Source of the DNA: a virus
DNA: 45,043 bases
IMG/VR virus record: IMGVR_UViG_3300042350_003251
Location: 1-45,043 of that record
Direction: 5' to 3' (one strand)
This document shows positions 34,728 to 37,674 of this stretch, in pieces. The notes below the pieces were generated by a model. That model saw nothing but the letters and a program-made list of their open reading frames with translations, made no database searches and had not been told where the DNA came from. Each line of letters begins with the position of its first letter. Positions within the stretch are counted from its first letter, which is position 1. A program made the translations under genes and the position numbers.

Positions 34728-34982
34728 CTATCTTTCTTTTTCCCTCACCTTATACCAATCCCCCTTCTCGTCTTTCCAATAGCTGCCACACTTGTGGTAT
34801 TGAATGCCGTCTAAGGAGTTGTTCTTGCGCCATCTTAGCCCCAGCCGTATTGCTTCTTTGCGGGATATGACAATCTCAAATTCGTGGAGCAGGTAAAGGT
34901 AAATACGTCGTATCATAGTTTCTTTCGGTTTTGTTGGTTTCGGCTCGTCTGCGTCCCAGACCCCGATGGATGGTTGGCTCAT
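34728..34982 (-). CDS. Unknown protein, 84 aa
   Basis: A basic 84-aa protein. The N-terminus is acidic and disordered-looking (SQPSIGVWDADEPKPTKPKE); a helical basic segment follows (MIRRIYLYLLHEFEIVISRKEAIRLGLRWRK, about 23-53) and a short strand pair with one Cys (KCGSYWKDEKGDWYKV). It overlaps the upstream gene as ATGA and is followed by a terminator. No family recognised. Confidence 0.5.
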   Translation of the reverse strand: MSQPSIGVWDADEPKPTKPKETMIRRIYLYLLHEFEIVISRKEAIRLGLRWRKNNSLDGIQYHKCGSYWKDEKGDWYKVREKER

Positions 34983-35173
34983 TTCTTGTTCCTGTATTCG
35001 TGTTCACTATAAATCTCCACCGGTCCCTTCTCCCGTATCGCTGCCGCCACCTCCTCCGCATTTTTAGCGTATTTCTGATCCGACACAAGGGCGTAGGTCA
35101 TGTCCGGAGACAAGCCACTGAAGAGAACGGCCTCATTGCCGTTGTCCAACATAAAGGTTAGTCTAATCAGCAT
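34979..35173 (-). CDS. Unknown protein, 64 aa
   Basis: The start ATG 35173 (MLIRLTFMLDNGNEAVLFSGL) gives an 11-nt overlap with the preceding gene; an ATG at 35200 would add nine residues. The protein has a beta-strand N-terminus and a helix (KYAKNAEEVAAAIREKG). It overlaps the next start as ATGA, which supports translation. Function unknown. Confidence 0.5.
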   Translation of the reverse strand: MLIRLTFMLDNGNEAVLFSGLSPDMTYALVSDQKYAKNAEEVAAAIREKGPVEIYSEHEYRNKK

Positions 35174-35492
35174 GGCTCTCTTGATATTGTGCCTCGACAA
35201 AATTAAATGCTTCCATGTGGTCGAAGAACCGTTGCTTCATGTCACTATCCATAGAATGAATCTGGCGGACAAGGCTGTAAAGCATTTCGTTCACCTCGAT
35301 TTCTAAGTCTTTGTGTTCTTTTCGCAAAAGCAAATGTAGGTGTTTTTCAAACCGGTTGGCAGCGTTAATTAGCTGGTTTGTCACTTGGTTCAATGCCGGT
35401 GAGAACCGCTTGTCAGGATCGTGTTTGAGAACGTCCCCTTGAATTGTCACCCCTTTCACGAAGGAGCAAAAAAGTGAATATTCGTTTGTCAT
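35163..35492 (-). CDS. Unknown helical protein, 109 aa
   Basis: Mostly helical and rich in His, Leu, Gln and Glu (NRFEKHLHLLLRKEHKDLEIEVNEMLYSL, split here as residues about 46-75). It is the first gene of a three-gene unit that ends at the terminator 34671-34702. TATGTTTG, a TAnnTTTG match, lies 4 nt before its start codon, but no TTG is suitably spaced. No signal peptide or catalytic motif. Function unknown. Confidence 0.5.
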   Translation of the reverse strand: MTNEYSLFCSFVKGVTIQGDVLKHDPDKRFSPALNQVTNQLINAANRFEKHLHLLLRKEHKDLEIEVNEMLYSLVRQIHSMDSDMKQRFFDHMEAFNFVEAQYQESHAD

Positions 35493-35560
35493 AATTCAAA
35501 CATATAACCACTACCCCAACCTTGCCGTGGTTGTTCGACCAAATCCCGTTCTCACTCGAC

Positions 35561-35591
35561 TAAAAGAAAAGAGGAGGCCATAAACCTCCTC
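35561..35591 (-). terminator. Strong Rho-independent terminator
   Basis: On the minus strand GAGGAGG (35591-35585), a 7-nt loop and CCTCCTC (35577-35571) form a perfect 7-bp GC-rich stem followed by TTTTCTTTTA (35570-35561). It lies about 40 nt beyond the structured region at 35630-35860, so it ends that transcript. Confidence 0.85.
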
Positions 35592-35629
35592 CTTTGCACA
35601 CATCTTTAAATTCAACCCTTAAAAATTTG

Positions 35630-35860
35630 CAGGGGGCAGCAGAGTCGAACTGCCGAAAATCCTTTAATATTATTCCCCCTGATTGCTGGGCCTCTATTCC
35701 CAGCTTTCTCGTGCCACAAGTATCAAACTTACCGGAATCTCGTCCTCTCAAAGTTCAGTATTCGGACTGAACGCCTAGCCCATTAGGGCGTCTTCGTCGG
35801 TTGGATATGCTTTTAAGAACGCTGTGGGCCTAAACCCGTTGCACTCCCGTAGGAGTTCGT
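35630..35860 (-). ncRNA. Structured non-coding RNA candidate with tRNA-like 3' element
   Basis: This gene-free stretch of about 230 nt is full of hairpins on the minus strand: ACTCC/GGAGT (35843-35856); GTTCAGT/ACTGAAC, 7 bp (35753-35772); GCTGGG/CCCAGC, 6 bp (35685-35704); and a 3' element in which CAGGGGG (35681-35675) pairs with CCCCCTG (35636-35630) around a T-arm-like hairpin, CGGCAG-TTCGACT-CTGCTG (35655-35637). The TTCGACT loop and its stem have the form of a tRNA or tmRNA T-arm stacked on an acceptor stem. Only about 19 nt separate the 5' acceptor-like strand from the T-arm, too few for D and anticodon arms, so it is not an ordinary tRNA. A terminator follows at 35561-35591. It may be a stable processed RNA at the 3' end of the ferritin operon. 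Confidence 0.45.
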
Positions 35861-35877
35861 TTTGAATTTATGTTGGT

Positions 35878-37236
35878 TTAATAGGGAGGGTTTATTGATC
35901 GCATAGAATTGAACCTATTTGATTTTTTTTTGGGTGGAATCATCATTCCGTTCTCGGCCTTTGGATTGATTTTTTTTAATCTATCCTTTCTACTCATTTC
36001 CAAAAGCATATCTATTCTTTTTAATTCAGCCGCATCTTCCTTAACTTTTGGATTAAGGCCGCTCTTCAGCATTTTTATCATCTTAACTTCTTCATGGCTG
36101 CTCTCCCCAAGATGTGGATAGTGTTTATCGCCCTGCTTGTCCGTCCAATATGGCATTTCTTTTTTTCCTGTTATGAAAGATTTAAGCTTTTCCAAAAGGT
36201 TTTGATTCATTCCCGGATACTGCATGGCTGGCGGTGGTTTTTGAGCAGGTTTTGGAATAGAAACCATTTCTGGCTTTCTGTTGTCGACCACATCCGGACC
36301 GGTGAAATTATAGTTTGCCGCCTTAGGGGTTAAGGCTTTTGGTACGATGATTTCTGGTTTAACCGGGGCTGGAGTTGGTTTTACCGGATTAACATTTGAA
36401 TAATCGTTGTTCTCTGCATAGCTATCCCAATACCCTTTTGGCTTTATTGATGGGTGATAAATATCAAAACTTCCACTTTTTAAGTAATTATCTATCTTCT
36501 GCTCATTAGAAAATTTTAACCGCTTAATCGTTACTTTTTTACCATCTTTTATTATGTCTGCCGATTGTACTTGATTTTCATCAGGGTATGTCCCCGGCTT
36601 TATGTTTTTATTTCTTTGCATTATTTCTAGTGCAAGCTTATCTAGTTTCTTTTTTGCCTCATCTCCTTCTTTTTTTAAGACAAATACCTGATTTGTTTTT
36701 TCGTACTCTTCCGGTGTGCTTTTACGTATTTGATCTGCTTTTTCAATTTGTTTTTGTAATTTATAATAATTGTACAAATCCAAGCTGTCCTGAGTTGTTG
36801 GCTTGCTTAAAATTGGGCGGGGCACCTTTTTCACCGCAGGAGGAACTATCTTCACGCCATCCTCGGCTTTTTGATTCATTGCTGACATGGGCATTGCTAT
36901 CATCATCCCATACTGAGCCTTGGCCGTCTTGGCTGCTTGCTTGAACTGGTCTGCGGTGGGCGCTCCGGCATCCCCGGGCTTACGCATCCGCTCACCACTC
37001 CCTGCCGCTATTCGCTCACGCTTGGCGTGGATGTTGGCGTACAGGCCATCTCCTGCCTTCTGATTGTCGTGCTTGAACTCCTTGAGGGAGCCAACAAACT
37101 TGTCCACCATCTCATGGTTGCCAGAATCAATATATCCCTTCACCATAGAAACCTTATCCTTGGGGATGACAGCCATGGTGCCGTTGGATGATTTGATGAG
37201 GATTTCTTTTCCCTCTACTTCCAGTTTGTTAGCCAT
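35878..37236 (-). CDS. Unknown protein, 452 aa, with GLYANIHAKR / KPG-GAPT motif
   Basis: Residues 62-106 read DGLYANIHAKRERIAAGSG, then ERMRKPG, GAPTADQFKQAAKTAK. I recall this combination (GL-[YW]-x-N-I-x-x-K-R ... GSGE-x-MRK-x-G-x-x-GAPT) from many short basic phage proteins of unknown role; here it is embedded in a longer protein. The rest is Lys/Pro-rich and mostly disordered-looking, with helical stretches (about 165-215) and repeated Pro-Lys segments (about 285-345). The basic, low-complexity character suggests nucleic-acid binding or a virion-packaged role. It is third in a tight operon after the ferritin-like and Cys-rich genes (3 nt gap) and precedes the structured RNA. Confidence 0.6.
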   Translation of the reverse strand: MANKLEVEGKEILIKSSNGTMAVIPKDKVSMVKGYIDSGNHEMVDKFVGSLKEFKHDNQKAGDGLYANIHAKRERIAAGSGERMRKPGDAGAPTADQFKQAAKTAKAQYGMMIAMPMSAMNQKAEDGVKIVPPAVKKVPRPILSKPTTQDSLDLYNYYKLQKQIEKADQIRKSTPEEYEKTNQVFVLKKEGDEAKKKLDKLALEIMQRNKNIKPGTYPDENQVQSADIIKDGKKVTIKRLKFSNEQKIDNYLKSGSFDIYHPSIKPKGYWDSYAENNDYSNVNPVKPTPAPVKPEIIVPKALTPKAANYNFTGPDVVDNRKPEMVSIPKPAQKPPPAMQYPGMNQNLLEKLKSFITGKKEMPYWTDKQGDKHYPHLGESSHEEVKMIKMLKSGLNPKVKEDAAELKRIDMLLEMSRKDRLKKINPKAENGMMIPPKKKSNRFNSMRSINPPY

Positions 37237-37239
37237 GAT

Positions 37240-37674
37240 TTATTTTCTTTGGAATCTAACTGCTTTTGATGCGTATGATTTCTTGCCAATACAACCCCAT
37301 GCCTTTCTGCTTAAATCGTTAGCGCAAGGCGGGTTGGAACACTTCTTGATGCCAGATGACCTAGCGCAATAGTTGTCGCCCTTTGGTGTGCCGGGGGATA
37401 TGCTATACCCCTTAGCACCGAATGAACGCTTCTTGCCGTTTATTGTAGCCGTGAATTTCTTCTTTATCACAGCCCCGTTCTTGGCAATGTCATCGGCTTC
37501 TTCTGCGCCATCTATCTTTCGAACGTAGCCATCTCCCACTTCAAGATTGATGCCGCCATTGGCGTGGCTCTTGCCCTTAAATTCCTGCATCACCTCCCAC
37601 TTACCACCGGCGATTGCCGCCTCCGGATTGGGGGTTTGCACAACTTTCATGGCCGACATAACCTTTGTATTCAT
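37240..37674 (-). CDS. Cys-rich protein, 144 aa, with SHANGGI and YCARS motifs
   Basis: Two halves are visible. The first has FKGKSHANGGINLEV (32-46), a G-x-S-H-x-x-GGI pattern I recall from Bacteroidota phage proteins. The second has KGDNYCARSSGIKKCSNPPC (98-117) and LSRKAWGCIGKKS (121-133); Cys103, 112, 117 and 128 could form a small zinc site. The protein is basic, with a C-terminal tail typical of nucleic-acid-binding or virion proteins. It lies 2 nt after the ferritin-like gene and 3 nt before the 452-aa gene, whose product shares its basic C-terminal style. Function unknown. Confidence 0.6.
   Translation of the reverse strand: MNTKVMSAMKVVQTPNPEAAIAGGKWEVMQEFKGKSHANGGINLEVGDGYVRKIDGAEEADDIAKNGAVIKKKFTATINGKKRSFGAKGYSISPGTPKGDNYCARSSGIKKCSNPPCANDLSRKAWGCIGKKSYASKAVRFQRK

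Follow-up and report, generated by a model that had tools for sequence, protein, structure and literature searches.

An anticodon-less tRNA-like element in a phage 3' untranslated end, a candidate RNA-processing signal, and arrays of similarly built elements in related phages

Genes and structural features at the locus

The window analysed here is a stretch of 45,043 nt of viral DNA (IMG/VR record IMGVR_UViG_3300042350_003251, positions 1 to 45,043). The terminase places this phage near Flavobacterium and Cellulophaga phages (about 25 % identity), and the genome is of the Bacteroidota type. All features relevant to this study are on the minus strand, in the same direction as the surrounding genes, and they lie between a 452-aa gene that ends at 35878 and a gene that starts at 35492. 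Two genes upstream, a 157-aa gene scores 24.4 bits against the Pfam Ferritin model (cut-off 24.5), which makes the label of ferritin operon given to these genes in the first-pass annotation a fair one. From 5' to 3', the following features were identified:

35705..35877 (-): untranslated spacer of 173 nt with weak hairpins, 3' of the 452-aa gene; no notable ORF
35685..35704 (-): hairpin GCTGGG-AATAGAGG-CCCAGC, ending 3 nt upstream of the tRNA-like element
35681-35630 (-): tRNA-like element, CAGGGGG / 19 nt / CGGCAG-TTCGACT-CTGCTG / CCCCCTG
35675..35681 (-): its 5' acceptor strand CAGGGGG, tRNA positions -1 to 6, pairing perfectly with 35636-35630
35656..35674 (-): its 19-nt linker AATAATATTAAAGGATTTT, with GG inside, which replaces the D arm, anticodon arm and variable loop
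35637..35655 (-): its T-arm CGGCAG-TTCGACT-CTGCTG, the loop being the consensus TTCRANY
35630..35636 (-): its 3' acceptor strand CCCCCTG, the final G being the equivalent of position 73
35626..35629 (-): tail CAAA, 3' of the tRNA-like element
35602..35626 (-): A/U-rich hairpin directly 3' of the tRNA-like element, from the fold
35567..35595 (-): intrinsic terminator GGAGGAGG-TTTAT-CCTCCTC with a T-rich tail (fold z -3.5)

The element is composed of acceptor and T arms only, without an anticodon arm, and both sequence and fold give an acceptor/T-arm stack of 13 bp including a -1:73 pair. The encoded tail is CAA and not CCA. The order of parts is hairpin, tRNA-like element, hairpin and terminator, all in the 3' untranslated end: the element is located 173 nt and one hairpin past the 452-aa gene and 28 nt upstream of the terminator stem, and is flush with neither neighbouring gene.

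Several features had already been recognised in the first-pass annotation and were recovered here, i.e. the T-arm (35655-35637), the CAGGGGG/CCCCCTG stem of 7 bp with which it stacks (35681-35675 paired to 35636-35630), the strong terminator, which is intrinsic (35595-35567), perfect hairpins and a short frame, AYPTDEDALMG-stop. Two points were corrected, namely the strand and the 5' acceptor strand: no upstream sequence pairs in tmRNA fashion, as had been noted, but the element has a local CAGGGGG strand 19 nt before the T-arm. The short frame does exist, within the spacer 35705..35877, but its suggested role as a tag finds support in no evidence, structure or tRNA half, nor in any conservation of the sequence around it. 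A small ORF ending at the TAG of the upstream hairpin, an arrangement found in related phages, was considered and rejected, only 17 codons being open.

The descriptor used to search for such elements requires a T-stem of five pairs closed by G-C, a TTCRANY loop and an adjoining 7-bp acceptor, with a reach of 60 nt. In the window it has a single match. Neither 400 dinucleotide shuffles of the whole window nor 60,000 of the region produced any, and a version with a longer reach matched 358 times across 1.86 Mb of fetched phage DNA and never after reversal of that sequence. The T-arm/acceptor module lies far outside what chance produces, and the earlier reading, a tRNA mimic at the 3' end, is correct and has strong statistical backing. 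The tRNA-like part folds at -19 kcal/mol (z -2.4), and a stem of at least 6 pairs at the site of the upstream hairpin was found in 0.6 % of shuffles (p ~0.006). For the stretch 35628-35875 as a whole, the fold z is only -1.5, with 14 of 200 shuffles equally stable, so that several perfect hairpins are indeed present but the description of the region as hairpin-rich is a weak claim, the richness being at most weakly unusual. The proposal of a new stable RNA over 35561-35860 was not upheld: the upstream spacer (35705..35877) is weakly structured, and no relative of it was detected among related phage records and isolate phages. Among related phages, recurrence is limited to the small tRNA-like element and the hairpins beside it, placed in a way that suggests mRNA processing more than an independent RNA.

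Identity of the element and search for homologues

The element has the acceptor stem and the TTCRANY T-arm of a canonical tRNA and is devoid of its anticodon and D arms. ARAGORN predicted no tRNA and no tmRNA in the window, no Rfam family reached the gathering threshold anywhere in it, and an Rfam search of a 601-nt region, tmRNA and tRNA models included as the first-pass annotation had advised, gave no tmRNA or tRNA match at E<=10. The search was a fair one: applied to the phage contig L113, this library detects a tmRNA at 59 bits. The intron mode of ARAGORN returned an intron-containing tRNA-Thr at 35629-35748, which was rejected as its acceptor pairs at only 4 of 7 positions.

A resemblance to tmRNA had been put forward on the basis of GGATTTTCGG ahead of the T-arm, which looks like a tmRNA 3' end; the stop of the tag-like frame falls inside a hairpin, and the element shares with tmRNA an end made of a T-arm and an acceptor strand. 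A divergent or truncated tmRNA with the tag AYPTDEDALMG is nevertheless largely refuted and in our view extremely improbable: the Rfam tmRNA models that detect the L113 tmRNA remain silent here, ARAGORN agrees, no 5' tRNA half is present farther 5', the acceptor strand finds its partner locally (19 nt from the T-arm) and the G3-U70 pair is absent. In addition, TTTTCGGCAGTTCGACTCTGC, the string that had called tmRNA to mind, occurs in ordinary phage tRNAs, where it spans variable loop and T-arm. Elsewhere among the phage contigs, L113:1088-1533 (-) is a genuine phage-borne tmRNA (Rfam 59 bits) located among tRNA genes, and L032:9410-9521 (-), detected in the intron mode of ARAGORN, is a tRNA with perfect acceptor, D, T and anticodon stems and a 32-nt insert in the anticodon loop.

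Homologues of the element were searched in several ways. No homologue was retrieved from viral_contigs via the neighbouring proteins, none was found by blastn against isolate phages, and scans of viral contigs and bacterial genomes with exact and degenerate patterns yielded no further copy, the core being absent from 84,980 bacterial species genomes. Across 31 whole related records, only the terminator part was recovered, in a single genome (G001). The exact window RNA is, by these comparisons, unique within the searched sequences.

G001 is the nearest relative in IMG/VR and displays strong mosaicism with the window. The aligned block 34978-35624 is 84 % identical overall and its terminator stretch, 35540-35624, 100 % identical; this stretch may hold more than a terminator. 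In G001, the terminator comes after another gene, without a tRNA-like RNA. Upstream of the element, viral_contigs holds no close relative of the C-terminal part of the 452-aa gene, and a partial one (in G007) is directly followed by another gene, with no RNA. The 144-aa and 452-aa genes (35878-37674) correspond to distinct, rearranged segments of longer modular proteins encoded by related phages, matches that point to deletion or module shuffling beside the RNA.

The identity with G001 stops 5-6 nt 3' of the tRNA-like element, i.e. just past the acceptor strand, which puts a module boundary at the element and would suit a recombination or attachment site, a tRNA 3' half acting as the place of integration or module exchange. 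We give this explanation very little credit: its core is missing from all the bacterial species genomes cited above, no integrase gene stood out in the window, mosaicism extends to many other parts of the genome, and an attachment core needs no local 5' acceptor strand.

Arrays of anticodon-less elements in related phages

Three phages that have modules in common with the window carry rows of 6-13 anticodon-less tRNA-like elements. The same descriptor identified 6 such elements in G008, 8 in G010 and 10 in G009; with a covariance model, 11 elements were found in G009, three of which the descriptor had missed. The arrays are the following:

L253:10034-15420 (+): G008 array, between small genes
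L261:10050-15905 (-): G010 array, between small genes
L259:18870-20000 and L260:80-3470 (+): G009 array, between small genes
L199:7812-8831 (+): L199 array, between small genes

No Rfam family covers these arrays, and the first 50 kb of each of the annotated phages NC_055854 and MW202828 contain none.

The position of the elements relative to genes is highly regular. All but one begin at most 16 nt from the stop codon of the upstream ORF and are found on the coding strand just ahead of the next likely start, this stop codon lying mostly within or beside a 4-7 bp hairpin just 5' of the element. An overlap between the stop codon and the start of the element, seen in L199, was examined as a rule and rejected as not general. 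An upstream hairpin with a stem of at least 5 pairs was found for 17 of 24 array elements (3.4 expected from shuffles) and a downstream one for 14 of 24 (3.8 expected). The second hairpin, variable in sequence (TGCC..GGCAGATTA or ..CAGTTGTAAACCAA), follows the element and precedes the next ATG. Linkers range from 10 to 39 nt and are of two types, neither of which has an anticodon arm: the short type of G009 resembles a bare D-loop (ATGGTGCAGGC, TTGGAGCAGGC), and the type found in G008 and G010 retains an apparent D-arm (CGC-AAGG-GCG).

Across the 23 distinct array elements, 12 of the 13 base pairs show changes in both partners, with a covariation score of 0.85, versus 0.20 after shuffling and 0.12-0.21 with slid partners; the acceptor/T-stem pairing of this set is partly by construction, as the descriptor requires it. 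The -1:73 pair was not required in seven G009 copies and is retained in all seven. The covarying stems proposed at the outset as the mark of a conserved RNA are found only in these analogous elements of related phages.

The window element and the arrays have in common an anticodon-less acceptor/T-arm stack, the -1:73 pair and hairpins on both sides; the G73-CAA tail of the window element is also that of the G008 and G010 elements. The window element differs in being present as a single copy, not flush with a gene, followed by a terminator and endowed with an acceptor sequence of its own. A covariance model (R1) built from 11 short-linker copies of G009/L199 gave no match at 35681-35630 in an unfiltered search of the window that admitted E values up to 10. 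We do not claim membership in the G009/L199 arrays, because R1 does not recognise the window copy; the window element is built like the array elements and is not asserted to be a member of their family.

Other tRNA-like families were encountered in phage DNA. The largest, defined by the constant ends TAGTCAGG...GGTTCGAATCCTGTCCTGACTAC, was found in L014, L032, L068 and L102-L221 (e.g. L111, L117, L148); it has a tRNA-Leu-like D arm, a very variable middle and an overall length of 54-181 nt, and is present in at least 120 viral stretches versus only 9 of 84,980 species genomes, ARAGORN calling 39 of 168. Its members resemble the window element in their perfect acceptor and T arms, their -1:73 pair, their intergenic location and the fact that they are mostly not called as tRNA; they differ in their acceptor sequence and, for the most part, in having a D arm and a variable anticodon region. 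This family was rejected as the parent of the window element, whose acceptor is CAGGGGG/CCCCCTG and not TAGTCAGG/CCTGACTA. A second well conserved RNA of 140-180 nt with tRNA-like ends is found in L113 (-), L142 (-), L159 (-) and L206:970-1115 (+), with the layout TTG....GTGGTG ... GGGTTGACCACAAAGCCGGC ... T-arm, covarying acceptors (TGTCAGG/CCTGACA, TGTAAGG/CCTTACA, TGACAGG/CCTGTCA, TGTAGAG/CTCTACA) and no Rfam match. Finally, L091, L097 and L098, which are phage contigs from isolate genomes, share an element of 106-114 nt that is not called as tRNA (acceptor GCGGACG/CGTCCGC, T-arm GGCGGTTCGATTCCGCC).

The arrays bear on two further explanations of the window element. According to the first, it would be a relic, now functionless, of a phage tRNA gene that lost its D and anticodon arms by deletion. 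In ordinary phage tRNA-Ala genes (L094-L096, L101), the variable loop and T-arm have exactly the sequence TTTTCGGCAGTTCGACTCTGC, and the window copy adjoins no gene start; mainly because this copy has no relative, a relic is the strongest rival explanation. We still hold it to be unlikely, as both stems are fully paired, -1:73 included, where decay should bring mismatches, as many copies of this reduced form are maintained in related phages, and as hairpins flank the element on both sides like those of the arrays. The second explanation is a stable small RNA or decoy, whose tRNA-like end would protect an RNA or titrate either an enzyme of the host that binds tRNA or a defence nuclease that cuts it. 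Phages carry tRNA-based counter-measures, and the tRNA-like 3' end, the upstream hairpins and the downstream terminator would fit such an RNA. However, the upstream part hardly exceeds shuffled sequence in structure and is not conserved, an anticodon-less form is unable to bait an anticodon nuclease, and the elements of relatives are intergenic and not separate units; a decoy thus appears improbable.

A candidate RNA-processing signal

We propose, at about even confidence, that the window element is an RNA-processing signal in a 3' untranslated end, probably cut by RNase P. The host RNase P would gauge the acceptor/T-arm stack (12 bp, together with the T-loop) and would cut at the 5' edge of the acceptor, on or beside C35681, leaving an upstream mRNA that ends at about 35682 with its 3' end shielded by the GCTGGG/CCCAGC hairpin. 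The element would be the single-copy counterpart of the intergenic rows of related phages, in which each element would separate one cistron from the next. We infer that RNase P would recognise and cleave the element, that mRNA stability would be affected and that the window copy is functional and not a relic.

This processing reading is favoured because the element is absent from shuffles and reversed sequence, because the arrays, with their covarying stems, sit at fixed positions relative to genes and hairpins, and because the window shows an array-like order of parts, the -1:73 pair and the G73-CAA tail. It is also favoured because RNase P recognises T-arm/acceptor stacks and cuts phage and polycistronic RNAs: according to one review, any RNA presenting a T-arm/acceptor structure is recognised, the D-loop being apparently dispensable and the T-loop needed (PMC4919913), and the substrates of the enzyme include the M3 and C4 RNAs of phages as well as polycistronic bacterial mRNAs (PMC11143913). 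The window element has the stack of at least 12 bp, closed by a T-loop, that would be expected of an RNase P processing signal, its pairs numbering 13 with -1:73. Moreover, a mimic located between genes with flanking hairpins is what would be expected of a cutting mark that protects both new RNA ends. Against the processing reading count the lack of a homologue of the window copy among the searched sequences, the failure of R1 to find this copy, the fact that no gene adjoins the element on either side and a tail that is CAA rather than CCA.

Three known systems provide points of comparison. The t-elements of plant mitochondria are tRNA-like structures at mRNA ends that undergo cleavage by both RNase P and RNase Z and receive a CCA tail without being charged (PMC11658184). 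The window element is similar in being a tRNA-like structure at an mRNA end, proposed as a cutting mark and not as a translator tRNA; in contrast, t-elements are organellar and homologous to tRNA genes, whereas the window element is in phage DNA, has no anticodon arm and is a putative substrate for cleavage and CCA addition. The elements of related phages, which lie between successive genes of the same strand, recall mitochondrial tRNA punctuation, but they are not working tRNAs, and in the window a single one is found, ahead of a terminator. Other non-tRNA substrates of RNase P, i.e. the phage M3 and C4 RNAs, the tmRNA and 4.5S precursors and the 3' end of MALAT1 (PMC11143913, PMC4919913), likewise offer a T-arm/acceptor-like stack within a longer RNA. 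These are single RNAs, whereas the phage form recurs gene by gene in relatives and would be cleaved in the window.

Extended to the relatives, the processing reading suggests, at somewhat less than even confidence, that a group of Bacteroidota phages splits its polycistronic messages via intergenic anticodon-less tRNA mimics cut by host RNase P, the window holding a single-copy form at a 3' end. The unit of punctuation would then tentatively comprise a stop codon in or beside a hairpin, the mimic, a second hairpin and the next start, i.e. a phage version of mitochondrial tRNA punctuation.

Processing signals resembling tRNAs are already known in organelles and nuclei, as are single phage RNAs that serve as RNase P substrates. 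We know of no described case, in a bacterium or a phage, of dedicated and repeated tRNA mimics that direct such cutting gene by gene; no report of tRNA-like punctuation in phages was found in the literature, the coverage of which was incomplete, so that this is weak evidence of novelty. In this respect, the arrays of the relatives are more surprising than the window element. If the processing reading is true, these phages would exploit the tRNA-processing enzyme of the host to provide every mRNA with ends of its own, and this would explain the pseudo-tRNAs of environmental phage genomes that annotation tools discard.
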